19,347 bases of DNA, from the NCBI GenBank assembly GCA_900553165.1, contig USCN01000005.1, positions 1-19,347 on the forward strand, read 5' to 3'. Both the position numbers and the translations under genes were made by a program. Positions 9,670 through 17,033 of this stretch are shown in pieces (position 1 is the first letter of the stretch; the number at the start of each line of letters is the position of its first letter). The notes under the pieces are model-generated. The model saw only the letters and a list, made by a program, of their open reading frames with translations. It was not told where the DNA came from and did not search any database. The stretch is from an uncultured Collinsella sp. Lineage in GTDB: Bacteria > Actinomycetota > Coriobacteriia > Coriobacteriales > Coriobacteriaceae.

Positions 9670-11268
9670 ATGGATCAAAAGGCTTCCGCAAAGGTCCTCG
9701 TACTCGACTTTGGTGCGCAGTACGGTCAGCTCATTGCCCGTCGCGTCCGCGACCTCAACGTGTATTCCGAGATTGTCCCCTGCGACATCTCGGCCGACGA
9801 GATTCGCGAAATGAACGCCTCTGCGCTCATCCTTTCCGGCGGCCCGGCCTCTGTGTATGCCGAGGACGCTCCGTCCATCGATCCTGCCATCTTTGACCTG
9901 GGCCTTCCCGTCCTGGGCTTTTGCTACGGCCATCAGATCACGGCCGTGACGCTCGGCGGCAAGGTTGGCCACTCCGAGGTGGGCGAGTACGGCCGCGCCA
10001 CCATCACGCGTACGGCCGGCGCCAAGCTCTTTAACTCCACGCCTATGGAGCAGACCGTGTGGATGAGCCACCGCGACGCCGTGTCCGAGGTGCCCGAGGG
10101 CTTTACCGTTACCGCCAGCACCGACGTGTGCCCGGTTGCCGCCATGGAGTGCGTCGAGCGCAAGATTTTCACCACGCAGTTCCACCCCGAGGTCAAGCAC
10201 TCCGAGTACGGTCAGCAGCTGCTGAGCAACTTCCTGTTTGAGATCTGTGGCCTGGAGCCCAACTGGAGCATGGACGACCTGGTCGAGACCATGACGGCCG
10301 AGTTCCGCGAGAAGGTCGGTGACGACCGCGTGATTCTGGCTCTGTCCGGCGGCGTCGACTCCTCCGTCGTGGCTGCGCTGGGCGCCCGCGCCGTGGGCAA
10401 GCAGATGACCTGTGTGTTCATCAACCATGGTCTGTTGCGCAAGGGCGAGCCCGAGCAGGTGGAGGAGGTCTTCACCAAGCAGTTTGACGTCGACTTTATT
10501 CACGTCCACGCCGAGGACCGTTATGCCGAGCTTCTGGCCGGCGTGACCGAGCCCGAGGAGAAGCGCCGCATCATCGGTACGCAGTTCTGGAAAGAGTTCT
10601 TCGCCGTGGCGCAGCAGCTCGAGACCGATGGCAAGCCGGTCAAGTACCTGGCTCAGGGCACCATCTACCCCGACATCATCGAGTCCGGCGCTCGCAAGAC
10701 GGGCGGCAAGACGGCCACCATCAAGAGCCATCACAACCTGATCCCGTTCCCCGAGGGCGTGCACTTCGATCTCATTGAGCCGCTCGACCACTTCTTTAAG
10801 GACGAGGTCCGCGCACTTGGTCTGGCACTGGGCCTGCCGGGTCACATCGTGTTCCGTCAGCCTTTCCCGGGCCCGGGTCTGGCCATCCGCATCATCGGTG
10901 CGGTCGACAAGGAGAAGCTCGAGATCCTCAAGAACGCCGACGCCATCGTGCGCGAGGAGCTCGACGCCTACAACCAGCGTCTGTTTGAGCAGACCGGCGA
11001 GCGCAACTCTGAGCACAGCTGCTGGCAGTATTTCGCGGTTCTGCCCGACATCAAGTCCGTTGGCGTTATGGGCGACGAGCGTACCTATCAGCGCCCGATC
11101 ATCCTGCGTGCCGTCGAGTCCAGCGATGCCATGACCGCCGACTGGGCCAAGCTGCCCTACGATGTCTTGGCCCGCATCTCCGGCCGCATCGTTGCCGAGG
11201 TTCCCGGCGCCAACCGCGTGTGCTACGACATCACGTCCAAGCCGCCCGCGACCATCGAGTGGGAGTAG
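9670..11268 (+). CDS. guaA: GMP synthase (glutamine-hydrolysing)
   Basis: A 532-aa two-domain enzyme converting XMP, glutamine and ATP to GMP in purine synthesis. The class I glutamine amidotransferase domain (residues about 8-195) has the triad Cys85 (GFCYGHQ), His172 and Glu174 (FHPEVKHSE). The ATP-pyrophosphatase domain starts with the PP-loop LALSGGVDSS at 223-232. The C-terminal dimerisation domain ends in the conserved RVCYDITSKPPATIEWE. The protein is complete. ATG 9670 is preceded by GAGGGGG. The leader has a GC-rich hairpin (GCGGG 9629-9633 with CCCGC 9647-9651); no purine riboswitch was seen. The last codons (GAG TGG GAG TAG) appear to be the attachment site of the element to the right: the coding sequence is restored intact, as usual for guaA-integrated islands. 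Confidence 0.98.
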   Translation: MDQKASAKVLVLDFGAQYGQLIARRVRDLNVYSEIVPCDISADEIREMNASALILSGGPASVYAEDAPSIDPAIFDLGLPVLGFCYGHQITAVTLGGKVGHSEVGEYGRATITRTAGAKLFNSTPMEQTVWMSHRDAVSEVPEGFTVTASTDVCPVAAMECVERKIFTTQFHPEVKHSEYGQQLLSNFLFEICGLEPNWSMDDLVETMTAEFREKVGDDRVILALSGGVDSSVVAALGARAVGKQMTCVFINHGLLRKGEPEQVEEVFTKQFDVDFIHVHAEDRYAELLAGVTEPEEKRRIIGTQFWKEFFAVAQQLETDGKPVKYLAQGTIYPDIIESGARKTGGKTATIKSHHNLIPFPEGVHFDLIEPLDHFFKDEVRALGLALGLPGHIVFRQPFPGPGLAIRIIGAVDKEKLEILKNADAIVREELDAYNQRLFEQTGERNSEHSCWQYFAVLPDIKSVGVMGDERTYQRPIILRAVESSDAMTADWAKLPYDVLARISGRIVAEVPGANRVCYDITSKPPATIEWE

Positions 11269-11361
11269 GCTGATAGGGTTCTGACCTGCATTTTTGAGTG
11301 CCGCACTGTGCCGCTGAGTTTCGTTTCGTACGAGAGTCATGGCAAAGCCGCCAGCGATGTT

Positions 11362-11799
11362 GGTGAGTAAATACGATAACCGAGCCTCCGTTCCCGCGTT
11401 GGGACGGAGGCTTTTTCTTTGTCGTTTTACTCCCTTTCACCTGCGATTTCGCAATTTACTCCCCCGTGTTTCAAGACGGCAAGGCACGGTGCGGCATTCG
11501 GAGGAACGGGAGTAAGGATTCATCCCAAGTGAGTAGACGCGCGATTTTTGTCTCCGAGAGCCAAACGGGGCCGTTTCGGGGCCTGTGAAACTCAAATCGA
11601 ACTCAATAGGCTTTTCGGCGGTCTTCTCACAGCGTTTTCCCAGGTGGTTAATGGGGAGTAAAGAATCTCGCCGCCTCAATGAAAACGGGAGTAACCAGGG
11701 GAAATGCCGCGGCGTACTGCCGCGTGCCGCCGTGTAAGCCACCGCGTCATTTACTCCCCAGGTGCGCCGGAAATGCCTTGGCATGCAATGGGGAGTAAA
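11362..11799. repeat. Array of GGGAGTAA motifs in both orientations (candidate integrase-binding sites)
   Basis: Seven exact copies of the octamer GGGAGTAA are present. On the plus strand they lie at 11508-11515, 11654-11661, 11687-11694 and 11791-11798. On the minus strand they lie at 11427-11434, 11456-11463 and 11751-11758. Near copies are GGTGAGTAA (11362-11370) and GTGAGTAG (11529-11536). The longer word TGGGGAGTAAA is exact at 11652-11662 and 11789-11799 (plus) and 11750-11760 (minus), the last two forming an inverted pair. By chance about 0.01 copies of an octamer would be expected. The motif resembles the guaA stop region GGGAGTAG (11261-11268). Arm-type or core-type sites of the nearby tyrosine recombinase are the best explanation. 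Confidence 0.8.
11383..11420 (+). terminator. Rho-independent terminator downstream of guaA
   Basis: AGCCTCCGT (11383-11391) pairs with ACGGAGGCT (11404-11412), with an inner CCC/GGG pair next to a one-base bulge, followed by the T-rich run TTTTTCTTT. It lies 115 bases after the guaA stop, so guaA mRNA would carry a 3' tail that includes element DNA if the junction is at the guaA end. Confidence 0.85.
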
Positions 11800-11886
11800 A
11801 ACTCAGCTTACGCAGGCCCGAGCGGCGCTCGCCGCCTGGTCCACCGTCCTGATTCGGTTGCGTTGATCGCGAAATGCGGAGAGCCG

Positions 11887-12300
11887 CTACAGCGAGGCTT
11901 TCCAGTCCTCGTATTCGTCGGCGTCGATCTTGCCGTTTTCGAGCTGCGCGCGCTTCTCTGCCCACAGTTCGATCGCCATCGCGGCTTTGGGCGCGTGCGG
12001 CGCCTTGGGGTTCAGGGAGAGGCCCGTGCCGTCGGCTGCGGGCACGATGCCGAAGGAGTCCTCGAGCCGCACGAGCAGCGACATGAGGTCGCCCGCAGTC
12101 TCGACGCCGTAATCCTTGAGGGCGTTGACGGACACGCCGAGCGCCGCGGAGATGGACTCGAGCAGCTCGGGCTTCACGGCGCGGATGCCGCTCTCGTAGT
12201 GGCGCACGGCCCCCTCGGTCAGGCCGACCGCCTCGGCGAGCTGCGCCTGCGTCATGCCGCGCGACTTGCGGTACCGCCTTATGTTCTCGCCTACGGACAT
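11887..12300 (-). CDS. XRE-family HTH repressor of the element
   Basis: A 137-aa regulator. An N-terminal Cro/CI-type helix-turn-helix domain covers residues about 4-60 (IRRYRKSRGMTQAQLAEAVG, LTEGAVRHYESGIRAVKPELL). An acidic helical C-terminal part of about 70 residues ends in GKIDADEYEDWKASL. ATG 12300 is preceded by the strong site AGGAGGAGGG; the frame continues upstream to 12360, but that start lacks a ribosome binding site and overlaps the operator. The C-terminal part shows no LexA/CI peptidase motif, so control by RecA-type self-cleavage is unlikely. It is divergent from the xis-int-mobC operon across a cluster of GTAC motifs and is the natural candidate for the element's master repressor. 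Confidence 0.9.
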   Translation of the reverse strand: MSVGENIRRYRKSRGMTQAQLAEAVGLTEGAVRHYESGIRAVKPELLESISAALGVSVNALKDYGVETAGDLMSLLVRLEDSFGIVPAADGTGLSLNPKAPHAPKAAMAIELWAEKRAQLENGKIDADEYEDWKASL

Positions 12301-12331
12301 GAGCCCTCCTCCTGGAATTACGTACCAGCAC

Positions 12332-12360
12332 ATCTTATCAGCGTACGCAAATGTACGCAA
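12332..12360 (-). promoter_or_regulatory. Candidate promoter of the XRE repressor with overlapping GTAC operator
   Basis: On the minus strand TTGCGT (12360-12355) and TAAGAT (12337-12332) are spaced by 17 bases and would start transcription about 25 nt before the strong ribosome binding site and ATG 12300. The inverted pair GCGTAC-GCAAAT-GTACGC (12341-12358) covers the spacer and part of the -35, placing an operator exactly where autorepression would be expected. Confidence 0.5.
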
Positions 12361-12422
12361 TTCTATTGACAGTACAGATATGTACGTTTACTCTGAATCT
12401 GTGAACCGTACGTATCCGTACG
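12341..12422. promoter_or_regulatory. Cluster of three GTAC-N6-GTAC operators between the repressor and the int operon
   Basis: GTAC tetramers occur at 12343, 12353, 12372, 12382, 12408 and 12418, in pairs each with exactly 6 bases between (10-base period, one helical turn). A lone copy is at 12322. The pairs are GTAC-GCAAAT-GTACG, GTAC-AGATAT-GTACG and GTAC-GTATCC-GTACG. The same arrangement recurs upstream of parA (19010-19024). The likely ligand is the divergent XRE protein. Confidence 0.7.
12366..12394 (+). promoter_or_regulatory. Promoter of the xis-int-mobC operon with operator in the spacer
   Basis: TTGACA (12366-12371) is followed after 17 bases by TACTCT (12389-12394). The spacer contains GTACA-GATA-TGTAC (12372-12385), a 5-bp inverted repeat that is also a GTAC-N6-GTAC motif. 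A protein bound here would block RNA polymerase directly. Another motif copy, CGTAC-GTATCC-GTACG (12407-12422), sits just downstream in the leader. Confidence 0.75.
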
Positions 12423-12440
12423 CCATTGATTGGAGGAGCC

Positions 12441-12644
12441 ATGGACGAGAAGGTGGCGAAGACGCCGAGGCCGCACATGCTGGACGCCGACGAGGTCGCG
12501 GAGCTGCTGAGGATCAAGAAAGGCAGCGCCTACGAGGTGATCAGGAAGATAAACGCCGAGCAGGAGGCGCGCGGGCGCGTGGTCATCCGCGGGCGCGTTC
12601 GAAGCGACGTCTTCGACGCCCTGTACTTCCCGGAGGTGGACTGA
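12441..12644 (+). CDS. Excisionase-like winged-helix DNA-binding protein
   Basis: A 67-aa protein, MDEKVAKTPRPHMLDADEVA onward, of the small MerR-like/excisionase group encoded just before tyrosine recombinases on mobile elements. The segment LDADEVAELLRIKKGSAYEVIRKIN (residues about 14-38) is the typical helix-turn-helix with recognition helix after KKGSAY, and VVIRGRVRSDVFDALYF (about 48-64) is the wing. ATG 12441 follows GGAGGA with good spacing; the further upstream ATG in frame lacks a site. It ends one base before the recombinase start, so the two are translationally coupled. It probably sets the direction of recombination toward excision, but it could instead be a regulator of the operon. 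Confidence 0.82.
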   Translation: MDEKVAKTPRPHMLDADEVAELLRIKKGSAYEVIRKINAEQEARGRVVIRGRVRSDVFDALYFPEVD

Positions 12645-12645
12645 C

Positions 12646-13716
12646 ATGCCCGTGTACAAGGACGACGGCAACGGCACGTTCTACGTGCAGTGCTACTACC
12701 GCGACGCCCGCGGCTCGAAGCGCCACAAGACGAAGCGCGGCTTCTCCTCCGAGGTGGAGGCCGCAGTGTGGGAGAGCCAGTTCAAGAGCCTTAACGGCGG
12801 GGCCATGGACATGACGTTCTCCGAGTTCGTCGAGGTGTACGCCTCCGAGGTGAAGCCGCGCATACGCGAGCACACGTGGATCACCAAGGAGTACATCATC
12901 AACGACAAGCTCGTGCCGTTCTTCGGGGACATGCGCATGTGCGACGTGAGGCCGATCGACGTCATCAGGTGGCAAAACGAGCTCACCGAGCACCGGGACG
13001 CCGACGGGAAGCCCTGGGCACCGACGTACCTGCGCACAGTGAACAACCAGCTCAACGCCATCTTCAACCACGCCGAGCGCTACTACGGCCTCAGCGACAA
13101 CCCGGTGCGCAGGGTCGACAAGATAGGCTCGAAGAAGGGCGGCGAGATGCAGTTCTGGACCAAGGACGAGTACCTGAGGTTCAGCGAGGCCGTCATGGAC
13201 AAGCCTCTCTCATTCCACGCCTTCGAGCTGCTTTACTGGACGGGCATACGCTGCGGCGAGCTCCTGGCGCTCACGCCGTCCGACTTCATGCTGGAGAGCT
13301 CGCGGCTGCGCATCAACAAGTCGTACCAGAGCCTCAACGGCGTTGACACCGTGACCGACCCCAAGACGCCCAAGTCCGTGCGCACGATCGTCATGCCCGC
13401 CTTCCTGCGCGACGAGATGGCGGACTTCATCGAGATGCGCGACGACGTCGCCCCCGACGAGCGCCTGTTCGCCGTGACCAAGCACTTCCTGGCCCACGAG
13501 ATGGAGCGCGGGTGCAAGGCGTCGGGCGTGAAGCGCATCCGCATACACGACATACGCCACAGCCATGTGAGCCTGCTGATAGAGATGGGCTTCTCCGCGC
13601 TGGCCATCGCCGAGCGCATGGGCCACGAGGCGGTGGACATCACCTACCGCTACGCGCACCTGTTCCCCACGAAGCAGGACGAGATGGCCGCCGCGCTCGA
13701 CGGGGCGAGGGGGTAA
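12646..13716 (+). CDS. int: Tyrosine recombinase (site-specific integrase)
   Basis: A complete 356-aa phage-type integrase. Residues 1-50 form an N-terminal arm-binding (AP2-like) module (VYKDDGNGTFYVQCYYRDAR). Residues about 56-150 are the SAM-like core-binding domain. The catalytic domain from about 168 has all active residues: Arg202 (TGIRCGELLAL), Lys243 (TPKS), His301 and Arg304 (HDIRHSH), His327 (MGHE) and nucleophile Tyr336 (TYRYAHLFP). The presence of an arm-binding domain predicts arm-type sites near its attachment site, which fits the GGGAGTAA array 0.9 kb away. It begins one base after the excisionase-like gene and is followed by the MobC-like gene within 6 bases. Integration into the guaA 3' end is inferred from location. 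Confidence 0.96.
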   Translation: MPVYKDDGNGTFYVQCYYRDARGSKRHKTKRGFSSEVEAAVWESQFKSLNGGAMDMTFSEFVEVYASEVKPRIREHTWITKEYIINDKLVPFFGDMRMCDVRPIDVIRWQNELTEHRDADGKPWAPTYLRTVNNQLNAIFNHAERYYGLSDNPVRRVDKIGSKKGGEMQFWTKDEYLRFSEAVMDKPLSFHAFELLYWTGIRCGELLALTPSDFMLESSRLRINKSYQSLNGVDTVTDPKTPKSVRTIVMPAFLRDEMADFIEMRDDVAPDERLFAVTKHFLAHEMERGCKASGVKRIRIHDIRHSHVSLLIEMGFSALAIAERMGHEAVDITYRYAHLFPTKQDEMAAALDGARG

Positions 13717-13721
13717 GAAGG

Positions 13722-14147
13722 ATGCCGTGCGAGAACAGCGCCCGCAAGCGCAGCAAGACGATGGCGTTCCGCTGCACGCCCGAGGAGCGCAAGCTCATAT
13801 GCGAGATGGCAGCCTGGAGCGGCATGAACAGGCAGGACTACATCATCGCCAAGCTCACCGATACCCAGGTCGAGGTGAGGCCCTCCGTGAGCGTGCAGAA
13901 GGCACTGAGGGACTCGATGGCGGAATTGGCCAAGGAGGTGCGGCTGGCGGCCTCCTACGGCGAGCTGAGCGAGTCCCTGCAACAGAGAATTGAGCACGTG
14001 ATGAGGTTCTTCCTAGCGCTCGGCGAGCCTGTTGACGCGCCGACGGAAGAGACATCGCCACGAACTACGTTTTTGGAAGAGCCGGTTCCATCCGTCATCG
14101 ATGCGGGTTCCGACACCGCAAGCATCTTCGAGATGGGACGCAGGTAG
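13722..14147 (+). CDS. MobC-like relaxosome / ribbon-helix-helix mobilisation protein
   Basis: A 141-aa basic-to-acidic protein. Residues about 10-50 (RSKTMAFRCTPEERKLICEM then SGMNRQDYIIAKL) match the ribbon-helix-helix domain of MobC-type plasmid mobilisation proteins, which bind oriT and help the relaxase. A helical stretch (about 60-105) and a disordered acidic tail follow. ATG 13722 is 5 bases after the int stop; the close AAGAAGG gives tight spacing, so ATG 13761 is an alternative start. No relaxase is in view; it would lie elsewhere on the element or in trans. Its stop is only 3 bases from the stop of the convergent DUF262 gene. It could also be a general RHH regulator. Confidence 0.75.
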   Translation: MPCENSARKRSKTMAFRCTPEERKLICEMAAWSGMNRQDYIIAKLTDTQVEVRPSVSVQKALRDSMAELAKEVRLAASYGELSESLQQRIEHVMRFFLALGEPVDAPTEETSPRTTFLEEPVPSVIDAGSDTASIFEMGRR

Positions 14148-14150
14148 GGC

Positions 14151-15854
14151 TTAGCGCCAGACCTCCAACGCCTTGTCCGCAAGCCATTCGGCGCGATCGG
14201 CGATATCGCCCTCGTTCCAAGACTCCTTCTCTAGGGCGCCGGCCATGGTCGCAAGGCCGGCGGCGCAGAGGGCAAGGCCGTCCTTGTATCCCTTTCCCTG
14301 CTTCTTGGTGGGCCAATCGGCATCGCGGATGGAGGCGTTGAGCGAATGCGTGATGATGGCGAGGTTGCCGAGCGTGAGGAGCTTCCGGTCCCTTCGCGTG
14401 GCAGCCTCATCGTCGAGGGCTCCCCATTTGTTGCGCCACTTCTTGGGCATCATGTGCTCGAGGGTGTACTGGTTGAACCCGAGCAGGGCCGTGCTGCTCA
14501 TGCCCGGACGAATGGCGCTTTCCAGCAGATAGAGGACGCCCTTGGACTGGAGGTTGTACAGACACGATTCCTCGAATGCCGCTCGAACCTCGGCGTCGCC
14601 GGGCATGTACGTCGTCGCCTCGTCATTGGCTTCGAGAGCCTTCCTCAGCGCCTCCGCGTCCTTCACCTCGTTCAAGATCAGCGAGGTGAACAGCCTGTTG
14701 TAGTTCTTCGTGGTCGCCTGAACCAGCATTCGGCGGACGATGTAGCTCTCAAGCAGGGCGTAGATCTTAGATTCCTCGCTCGAAGACTCCGCGTTCTTTC
14801 GAACGTAGAGCACGTACGGGATGAGCGTCGAGTTCTTGAGGCCGAATATCAGCACGTTCAGGCGCTCGACGCCGGAAGCGGAGGGGATGTCCGCGTCGCA
14901 GTAGCCAGGGTCGAACGTGGACTCGAACGCCTCGGCATACGCCTTCATGTTGTCGAGAATCTCGACCTTGTCGCCGTTGCAGTACCTGCCGATGAAATCC
15001 TTGTAGGACTGGAAGAGGTTCGAAGTACGCGAATAGAAGAGCTTGTCCTCGGTCGTGACGCCACGCCTCTTGTCCTGGACCAGAATCTGGAGGAACGCGT
15101 CGAAGAAGAGGTCGACGAGCGTGCGCTTGATGCGCCCGGTAACGATCTCCTGCTCCCAATACTCCCTCTTCTCAGCCGTGGGCTCGAAGACGTCTTCCCA
15201 GCACTCCTTGAACGCCTGCTCGTTCTCGCGGTTGAAGAAGTAGTTCTTAAGGAGCTCCGCCGTCGTCAGGCGCACCCCGAGCGAGTTGATGGTGTCGAAT
15301 ATCTGCTGCTCGTCCTCGCCCTCGGTAAGATCGATGCAGACGAACTGGACGTTCGACTTGATCGTGTTCCTGTCGACCTTCTCCGGGTCGATATTCTTGA
15401 GGAAGTAGTTGTAGGCAAGGACGATGGCCGAGGAGCCCTCGAGGGGTTCGCAGCCCGTGGCGCTGACGACCTTTTCGAAATCCTGCCGGTCGTACTTGCC
15501 GTGCCGCAAGGCGACATCGCCGGTCTCCAGGACGAAATCTCGCTCAAACAAATTGTTGGTGCCGTTTTTTGCACAGAGTGCCTTGAAGAAGATGACCATG
15601 GTCGTGAGTCGCTGCTGGCCGTCGATGACGGTGCGAACCTCGGAGACCTCGGACCAGGTGTTGCCGGAGGAGGCCTGCTTCAGGATGATGGAGCCCAGGA
15701 AATAGGGCCGCTTCGAGGCCGTGACGAACTCCATGTCGCCGAGGAAACGCTCCCATTGCTCTTCTCCCCAGACGTACGCCCTTTGGTAAAAAGGTATTTC
15801 GAGCAGGCGCGATCCGTTGAACACGCCGCTTATCGTTGCTTTTCCTGCATCCAT
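14151..15854 (-). CDS. GmrSD-type DUF262/DUF1524 protein (type IV restriction-like)
   Basis: A 567-aa single-chain protein with the two domains of GmrSD restriction enzymes, which cleave modified phage DNA in a nucleotide-dependent way. DUF262 (N-terminal half): IPFYQRAYVWGEEQWERFL at residues 20-38; the diagnostic nucleotide-hydrolysis motif IDGQQRLTT at 77-85; and FDTINSLGVRLTTAELLKN at 186-204. The C-terminal DUF1524 HNH nuclease region has NQYTLEHMMPKKW at 461-473 (His467 of the EHxxP motif) and GNLAIITHSLNASI at 496-509, so both catalytic parts look intact. It starts at ATG 15854 with a weak Shine-Dalgarno sequence, 51 bases behind the DUF4238 gene, and is probably co-transcribed with it. 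A role in defence against phages is inferred from the family and island context. Confidence 0.9.
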   Translation of the reverse strand: MDAGKATISGVFNGSRLLEIPFYQRAYVWGEEQWERFLGDMEFVTASKRPYFLGSIILKQASSGNTWSEVSEVRTVIDGQQRLTTMVIFFKALCAKNGTNNLFERDFVLETGDVALRHGKYDRQDFEKVVSATGCEPLEGSSAIVLAYNYFLKNIDPEKVDRNTIKSNVQFVCIDLTEGEDEQQIFDTINSLGVRLTTAELLKNYFFNRENEQAFKECWEDVFEPTAEKREYWEQEIVTGRIKRTLVDLFFDAFLQILVQDKRRGVTTEDKLFYSRTSNLFQSYKDFIGRYCNGDKVEILDNMKAYAEAFESTFDPGYCDADIPSASGVERLNVLIFGLKNSTLIPYVLYVRKNAESSSEESKIYALLESYIVRRMLVQATTKNYNRLFTSLILNEVKDAEALRKALEANDEATTYMPGDAEVRAAFEESCLYNLQSKGVLYLLESAIRPGMSSTALLGFNQYTLEHMMPKKWRNKWGALDDEAATRRDRKLLTLGNLAIITHSLNASIRDADWPTKKQGKGYKDGLALCAAGLATMAGALEKESWNEGDIADRAEWLADKALEVWR

Positions 15855-15905
15855 CCTTAAAGCCCTATCTATCCTTTGCGGTTATTGCTGGCGGGGTCAA
15901 TTTTA

Positions 15906-17033
15906 TCAATACGCTGCTTGACCCTTTAATGTTCCCGGTCCTTGCCGTCTTCTCCCCAGAAGGTGCTCGAAGATGATGCGCAGGTCCTCGTCATCAAGGC
16001 AGCCGCCCTCGAGGCAGCCACGGTCGATGGTATCGATCATCGTCTGCCCCTTCTTCTTCGAGCGGTCGTAGATCACTGTGTCGAGGGATAGCTCCCTGCC
16101 GTCGCGCGTGAACATCTCGTGCATGAATTCGGCACTGTTCGCTTGACTCCAATCGCGTACCGCGTGCTCGAGCGGGCCGCTTCCCCTCGATATGGCGACA
16201 TCCCAATGCTCGCAGTTAAGCAGAAGAAGTCGGTTCATGAACTCGACGCCCGAAAAACCGAGTCTCGCAAACGGCGGAAATAGAGGGTCATCTGAAAAGA
16301 CCGCAGCATACTCACTGCTCAACGGCATATACGCGAGATGAAAATCGTACGAGTCGTCCTCGGGCCCGATGATGAACATAGGCATCGACGTCGTAACGAA
16401 CCCTGAGCCGACGGGTGCCCTAAGGATGGAGAAGCTCTTCTCAAAAAAAGCCTTTCGAATACGGTTAACTGGCACAATATCATCGTTGGAGAAGAGCATG
16501 GTTGCGGCGGCGGCAAGCTCGACCACCGCTTGGGAATCCCCGCGCCAATCCGACCAATCGAGCAAGCCGAGCTCATAGGGTGTCAGATGAACGTTTCTGA
16601 GCAGCTCTTCGGCAGTCTCGCGTGACCATTTCTTGTCGACGCGCATACTGATAGGGTGCCGGACGATGATATTTGCTGCCAGCTCGCAAACGGCGGCTTT
16701 CCCATCAGAATACCCTTCGTCTTCGCACTGGTCTTCTTTCTGGCGTTCCAAAAAGCGATCGTAAAGCGGCGCGATGCGGCTCTCGAGCTCAGATAGCTTA
16801 ACCTCGATGAGGTTCTGCGCATAGAATCTGTCTGTCGCATCGCCTGTCGCATCGGCATGCTCGACCTCATAAAGATCGCGCATGCTGCAAAGGTTCTCGC
16901 AATTCGTGCGGAAGAAGGAGCCCTTCTGTCTGCTGTAGGCATGAAGCTGCCCGGAGGAATCCGCGAAATGGCGCAGGTAGAACCGCGGCACCCAGTGCTG
17001 CTTTCGCGTCATCTTTCCGGGCAGCTTCGACAT
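15906..17033 (-). CDS. DUF4238 domain protein, upstream partner of the GmrSD-type gene
   Basis: A 375-aa protein recognised by the N-terminal DUF4238 hallmark KQHWVPRFYLRHFA at residues 11-24, followed by a strand-rich segment (GQLHAYSRQKG) and NLCSMRDLYEVE (47-58). The rest is mixed alpha/beta with a conserved-looking SSEYAAVFSDDPLFPPFARL block. No membrane segment is seen. DUF4238 has no established biochemical function; proteins of this family are often found on islands. ATG 17033 is preceded by GAAGG about 7 bases upstream on the minus strand; a second Met lies at residue 8. It is the first gene of a two-gene leftward operon with the DUF262/DUF1524 gene. A sensor, nuclease accessory or regulator role would be guesswork. 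Confidence 0.85.
   Translation of the reverse strand: MSKLPGKMTRKQHWVPRFYLRHFADSSGQLHAYSRQKGSFFRTNCENLCSMRDLYEVEHADATGDATDRFYAQNLIEVKLSELESRIAPLYDRFLERQKEDQCEDEGYSDGKAAVCELAANIIVRHPISMRVDKKWSRETAEELLRNVHLTPYELGLLDWSDWRGDSQAVVELAAAATMLFSNDDIVPVNRIRKAFFEKSFSILRAPVGSGFVTTSMPMFIIGPEDDSYDFHLAYMPLSSEYAAVFSDDPLFPPFARLGFSGVEFMNRLLLLNCEHWDVAISRGSGPLEHAVRDWSQANSAEFMHEMFTRDGRELSLDTVIYDRSKKKGQTMIDTIDRGCLEGGCLDDEDLRIIFEHLLGRRRQGPGTLKGQAAY

Follow-up and report, generated by a model that had tools for sequence, protein, structure and literature searches.

Genes and Features at the guaA Locus

The window, that is, the whole stretch of 19,347 bases analysed in this work, carries the GMP synthase gene guaA (9670–11268, plus strand; Pfam GATase and GMP_synt_C), which is the target of an integrated element. 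The end of the gene, GGGAGTAG, is present at 11261–11268, and the core repeat GAGTGGGAGTA (11257–11267, plus strand), an 11-mer that recurs at right ends, is regarded as the attL copy and presumably marks the crossover point. Insertion at guaA with the 11-bp core repeat at the left and right ends was also found in relatives, and by its place at the 3' end of guaA and its 11-bp core repeat the window element appears to be a guaA-specific, Tn5801-like insertion. The right end of this copy was not found within the window.

Behind guaA lies a terminator-like hairpin with a T run, supplied by the element and partly conserved (11384–11420, plus strand; recognised by eye). It is followed by a gene for an Xre-like regulator (11887–12300, minus strand; Pfam HTH_3) and by a promoter region with palindromic GTACG words, likely operators of that regulator (12301–12440; by eye). 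The next gene encodes a 67-aa excisionase-like protein (12441–12644, plus strand), which resembles the NCBIfam model of the ICEBs1 excisionase with a score under its cut-off (E 7e-13, 48.1 bits, cut-off 100) and gave no match in a Pfam search. The tyrosine integrase gene (12646–13716, plus strand) encodes an arm-binding domain (PF14657, above its cut-off), a SAM-like domain (PF14659) and a catalytic domain (PF00589); in the predicted structure, the N-terminal domain consists of three strands and a helix (E3-5, E12-19, E25-33, H36-50). Residues R202, K225, H301, R304, H327 and Y336 are invariant across 24 sequences, and from knowledge of the family we take them to be the catalytic R, K, H, R, H and Y. 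With this N-terminal domain and these residues, the recombinase probably belongs to the arm-domain tyrosine integrases of the IntTn916 subgroup. A gene for a NikA-like protein (13722–14147, plus strand; PF21983) comes next. The region 14151–17033 encodes a GmrSD-type restriction protein and a DUF4238 protein, a cargo common to elements in Bifidobacterium, Arcanobacterium, Olsenella, Varibaculum and Collinsella, and from about 17052 onwards the window departs from the sequence common to eight elements and the rearranged locus L071.

Two Repeated Words in the Left Arm

Between guaA and the regulator gene, the octamer GGGAGTAA, hereafter class A, occurs in seven exact copies within 11427–11798, on the minus strand at 11427–11434, 11456–11463 and 11751–11758 and on the plus strand at 11508–11515, 11654–11661, 11687–11694 and 11791–11798. 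There are no further copies in the window, and 200 dinucleotide shuffles gave a mean of 0.22 copies and a largest count of 2. Near copies are found on the plus strand at 11363–11370 (GTGAGTAA, inside the conserved block GGTGAGTAAA) and 11529–11536 (GTGAGTAG), while TGGGGAGTAAA was read by eye three times. The counts and positions given in a preliminary description of this DNA (seven exact octamers, two near copies and an 11-mer present three times) were thus reproduced. The word is non-palindromic, and its exact copies are spaced, start to start, by 29, 52, 146, 33, 64 and 40 bases. The same description placed spacings of 21, 29, 33 and 40 bases near whole helical turns. The last three are present and 21 is the distance from the site at 11508 to the near copy at 11529; however, the phasing is weak, with a Rayleigh R of 0.76 and an uncorrected p of about 0.02 at 10.5 bp, and with p of 0.66 at 10.0 bp and 0.61 at 11.0 bp.

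Inside the array, in a conserved block, sits a second word, absent from the preliminary description and hereafter called class B. It is a tandem AACTCAA with a period of 11 (11589–11595 and 11600–11606, together 11589–11606, plus strand), a candidate arm-type pair of the integrase. Single copies of AAACTCA stand at 11315–11321 on the minus strand and at 11799–11805 on the plus strand, the latter adjoining the last class A site.

Conservation of the Array with the Element

A scan for the integrase, with one genome per species, yielded 77 loci from the best 80 of 83 matches. Among these best 80 of 83 matches, near-identical integrases are spread across several orders of Actinobacteria, and the hosts of the close loci include Bifidobacterium, Arcanobacterium, Varibaculum and Gleimia in addition to Coriobacteriia. 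In the 24 loci with an integrase 97–100% identical and complete upstream DNA, all seven octamers lie at the same offset from the integrase (1 bp slack) in 22, and six of them in the other two (L009 and L026); outside this set, locus L030 begins too near the integrase, and L071 has four octamers. Variable columns make up 3/56 of the octamers vs 240/559 of the other intergenic DNA (21 distinct sequences, 54 members), and in 5000 random placements the conservation of the octamers was never reached. A chance origin was rejected on these grounds, as had been claimed from the sequence of the window: 0.22 copies are expected against seven observed, and the octamers are conserved beyond the background. 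The end of guaA precedes the core in most close loci, while in L006, L012, L017 and L024 other DNA stands there, which is read as the right ends of neighbouring elements. The array is thereby confirmed, and its sites are conserved. It lies, as the preliminary description had it, in the attachment arm of an element inserted at guaA, near an arm-domain tyrosine recombinase.

The array might be ordinary DNA behind guaA, present in relatives that lack the element. A search for guaA gave loci for 30 relatives, 26 of them with 1500 bp downstream (L204, L210, L212 and L213 were too short). The class A consensus GGGARTAA is absent behind guaA in 17 of the 26, a group that includes elements with other words, such as that of genome G010, and occurs two or more times in nine. 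Six of these nine have an integrase match (L189, L193, L197, L200, L201 and L218), and L209 is the same element as L164. In L198, 500 bp of left arm identical to that of L108 are followed by another frame up to the contig end (a transposase by eye). The exception is L195 (G007), with two GGGARTAA words and a membrane-protein-like frame close behind (by eye), no integrase, regulator or excisionase-like match behind guaA and zero similarity to the four arms compared. The view of the array as ordinary guaA-flanking DNA was rejected; 17 of the 26 loci lack the word, and most of the others are linked to an element.

Class A Words in Other Elements at guaA

Integrase matches were found in 77 of 396 genomes of the class and in 38 of 138 and 27 of 140 genomes of two families, sets that overlap with that of the class. 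The pooled 164 matches formed 74 clusters; the guaA end or the core was mapped in 39 (36 located through guaA, 3 solely through the core motif), and 35 were without mapping. The integrases of the 39 mapped clusters are 50–100% identical to that of the window. In 17 of the 39, a word is repeated in the first 700 bp at p ≤0.01 (200 shuffles, floor 0.005), with words differing among clades; for some of the 17 (L027, L031 and L163 among them) the word may belong to a coding sequence or an operator. Class A words were counted as G[GT]GA[AG]TA from +15 to +600, and three or more were present in six clusters, namely the window, L023, L105, L117, L129 and L138. A comparison of other guaA elements for the same word, suggested in the preliminary description, had a divided outcome: GGGARTAA-like words recur in six clades, and other clades with the same guaA target use other words. 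Palindromic words, TGATACG or CGAAAACG, occur in the arm and near the regulator promoter in L145, L146 and L163 and in L118, and are possibly operators. Two related integrase genes stand in tandem in L147, L164, L167, L168, L169 and L171 (G243, G034, G248, G380 and G020).

The six clades share a geometry. Shifted sets give 10.9 coincidences in position and strand (sd 3.6), compared with 36 observed (p 0.0002), and the four less related clades alone give 14 coincidences vs 3.9 (p 0.0024). All clusters with at least three sites between +15 and +600 enter this test. Its first version, with seven hand-chosen clades drawn from 36 of the 39 clusters (those with at least 900 bp to the integrase), included L164, which has two sites, and left out L169, and gave 41 vs 12.2 (p 0.0002); both of these loci reach three class A sites only if the count extends to +700. 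In L128 and L137, the aligned positions carry GAATGAC-like words.

The likeness of the octamer to the end of guaA had led to the proposal of attB-like repeats, which holds for part of the clades. Words within one mismatch of the clade's own guaA end exceed shuffled words in 7 of 22 clades (fractions 0.003–0.033, uncorrected), while the remaining 15 show no such excess over shuffles. Compared by eye with the core at its A/G position, the word carries the same base in 6 of 9 clades and the other base in L128, L129 and L164.

A further word, AAGCCACC, is constant among the left arms, where it occurs 13 times in 10 of the 39 clusters vs a mean of 0.90 and a maximum of 3 in 50 shuffles. In the window it lies at 11736–11743, and it is also found in the right-end block. 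It may represent a third site class or a site for a host factor.

The Tandem Repeat and the Integrase N-Terminal Domain

A tandem direct repeat with a period of 11–12 bp is present in 30 of the 39 clusters mapped at guaA. It lies at +51 to +62 in 15 short-arm clusters (mostly Clostridia) and at +286 to +359 in 15 long-arm clusters, including the window. In the fixed stretch from +280 to +365, a tandem was found in 13 of 36 clusters vs 0.40 expected; control stretches gave 0, 0, 1, 0 and 0, and the stretch from +20 to +105, which is the short-arm position, gave 15.

The tandem word correlates with the N-terminal domain of the integrase when the rest of the protein is removed (partial Mantel r 0.27, p 0.0005, n=30), and with the rest when the N-terminal domain is removed (partial r 0.20, p 0.003, n=30); the words entering this and the class A/class B comparison were chosen by the authors. 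Within the +61 group, the values are 0.64 (p 0.0005) for the N-terminal domain vs -0.02 (p 0.57) for the rest, and within the +300 group 0.26 (p 0.007) vs 0.12 (p 0.11). The tandem AACTCAA word thus appears to follow the N-terminal domain of the integrase. Class A words are uncorrelated with class B words (p 0.72, eight clades only), and a single reader for both classes is disfavoured because class A does not track class B, eight clades being few.

Class B is a better candidate than class A for the arm-type sites of the integrase, judging from the covariation of its word with the N-terminal domain and from mycobacteriophage 11-bp pairs, which behave alike in the portion of the source considered here (PMC3203893). 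The octamer GGGAGTAA is probably not the arm-type site, and the earlier proposal that the recombinase binds the octamers as its own sites gave way to one in which the tandem repeat takes that place.

Right Ends of the Elements

Right ends were sought with the core pattern GARTGGGARTA in 19 genomes chosen as integrase carriers. As the pattern gave 124 matches vs 70 for a reversed-pattern control, single matches mean little. Where several cores follow guaA on the same strand, as in G253, they are compatible with elements in tandem. In that genome, less than 60 kb of contig C1 (1487625–1547034) holds eight GAGTGGGARTA cores, all of the same strand, which suggests several guaA elements in a row. 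The right ends picked from same-strand core copies terminate in the core 11-mer. The 1000 bp preceding each of 14 right-end cores contain no exact GGGAGTAA or GGGAATAA; 11 of these right ends have the window-type block. In the consensus of these 11, AAACTCA or its complement appears at three places that do not form an 11-bp pair, and AACTCAA-type words are thus found on both arms. From about 180 to 115 bp before the core, the consensus of the right-end block also has GGGACAA three times, in both orientations, which may mark yet another class of site.

A different layout is seen in G010, where a right-end core about 38 kb from guaA is preceded by four class A and six class B words of the L117 clade; most simply, this is the other end of the L117 element. 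The layout is repeated with another class B word, GGCTACCA, in L183, L184 and at the second core in L185, so that both site classes are present in G010 and three other right ends.

Proposed Role of the Two Site Classes and Its Alternatives

The reading that we favour, with confidence somewhat above even, is that the left, integrase-side arm of the element at the 3' end of guaA carries two classes of short sites, with class A as accessory sites that fold a lengthened arm around the class B pair. Class B, i.e., the 11-bp tandem pair of AACTCAA with its single copies, would be read by the N-terminal arm domain of the integrase, while class A around the pair would be bound by a recombination protein encoded by the element. 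Once bound, class A would bend the arm, allowing an integrase seated on the pair to reach the crossover core. The distance to be bridged is about 320 bp in the window (about 300 in long arms) vs about 60 bp in short-arm relatives. The place of the array in the element, its conservation, the shared geometry and the covariation of class B with the integrase domain are observed; binding, bending and the identity of the binder are what we infer from them. As for that binder, an accessory protein of the element (NikA-like or excisionase-like) is a serious candidate without reaching an even chance, the integrase acting in another mode is only slightly less likely, a host architectural protein seems rather doubtful, and any other reader would be improbable.

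Three or more class A words in +15 to +600 occur in 6 of the 15 long-arm vs none of the 15 short-arm clusters (Fisher p 0.017, with clusters treated as independent). The other nine long-arm clusters lack three such words, so that a long arm can do without class A and, where clear class A is missing, a different word or a different solution would be required. Folding of the added arm length by class A would be the simplest account. Besides these nine clusters, several observations weigh against the two-class reading: the correlation of the tandem word with the remainder of the integrase, the lack of exact octamers before the 14 right-end cores, and the two GGGARTAA words of L195.

The roles could also be exchanged, GGGAGTAA being the arm-type site of the integrase and the tandem AACTCAA the site of an excisionase. 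The many conserved copies of the octamer beside an arm-domain integrase agree with such an exchange, as does the excisionase-like gene in the window; moreover, Apl-type directionality factors are described, in the part of the source used, as binding direct repeats one turn apart, an arrangement typical of excisionases (PMC7498355). We consider this exchange unlikely, because it is the tandem word that varies with the N-terminal domain and class A does not track that word in eight clades, because L112, L114 and L129 have the tandem repeat and no clear excisionase-like match in their loci, and because all 15 short-arm clusters are without three or more class A copies. It is quite improbable that an excisionase-like or NikA-like protein binds class A in the control of transfer or excision, with no folding in integration. 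Genes for both proteins are neighbours in the window, and 37 of the 39 mapped clusters have a NikA-like match behind the integrase; however, the locus of L129 (9.5 kb) has five class A sites and no excisionase-like match, and NikA-like genes occur with and without class A, so their presence is undecisive.

A regulatory region for the Xre-like regulator or a host factor, governing expression of the module or termination downstream of guaA, would accord with the palindromic TGATACG shared by the arm and the regulator promoter region in L145, L146 and L163. This seems very improbable, as the promoter in the window has palindromic GTACG rather than the non-palindromic GGGAGTAA, and in G010 class A also flanks the right-end core so far from guaA. 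Chance, or a neutral remnant of repeated insertions, is brought to mind by the resemblance of the word to the guaA end and by the frequency of tandem elements, and is given almost no credence against 0.22 expected copies, conservation above the background and a shared geometry. Beyond the favoured two-class reading, we tentatively suggest an attP of about 1 kb with at least three site classes, namely arm pairs that vary along with the integrase, GGGARTAA accessory sites and the constant AAGCCACC, in which the long arm would form an enlarged intasome whose second reader would be an as yet undescribed recombination factor; we regard this as possible and doubtful enough to be held loosely.

Relation to Known Attachment Sites and Significance

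The guaA target, the 11-bp core and arm-domain integrases are already known (PMC4844618, PMC4701971, PMC8138268); Tn5801-like elements likewise occupy the 3' end of guaA, flanked on either side by an 11-bp repeat, and the passages used describe no arm sites for them (PMC4844618). The arm resembles the attP of phage λ, which combines a tyrosine integrase bearing an N-terminal arm domain, arm-type sites apart from the core and sites for bending proteins between them, the accessory proteins bending the DNA between core and arm sites (PMC4880445). As far as the sections used describe it, λ packs five arm-type and 16 protein sites into 240 bp (PMC4880445), whereas here the left arm by itself has two repeated words spread along some 540 bp, which bears out the earlier impression of an arm unusually rich in sites. 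In the attP of Cluster K mycobacteriophages, too, 11-bp arm-type repeats come in pairs and differ in sequence according to the N-terminal region of the integrase, and many arm sites are not without precedent, L5 having several additional arm-type sites and Pixie six; in the part of that source considered, Cluster K has four or six predicted sites of one word, in contrast to two classes here (PMC3203893). ICEMlSymR7A, another integrative element, also combines a directionality factor with repeats of an integrase arm motif; as given in the passages used, its attP has five such motifs, all of one consensus, within 283 bp, vs two words here (PMC11963761).

In a search of the open-access literature by title and abstract, no paper was recognised as describing this array. 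As far as that search goes, two things are new: a second class of sites that keeps a conserved geometry of its own, and the displacement of the arm pair. The landing arm at guaA is larger and more layered than textbook arms. If the two-class reading is true, one integrase family with a fixed target would offer a natural series in which the arm word, the arm length and the N-terminal domain vary while the core stays constant. Such a series would open two questions to direct experiment, namely the reading of a site by an arm-binding domain and the way in which an intasome accommodates a shift of the pair from about 60 to about 300 bp from the core. Since nearly identical integrases span several orders of Actinobacteria, the control of transfer of guaA elements matters for gut bacteria.
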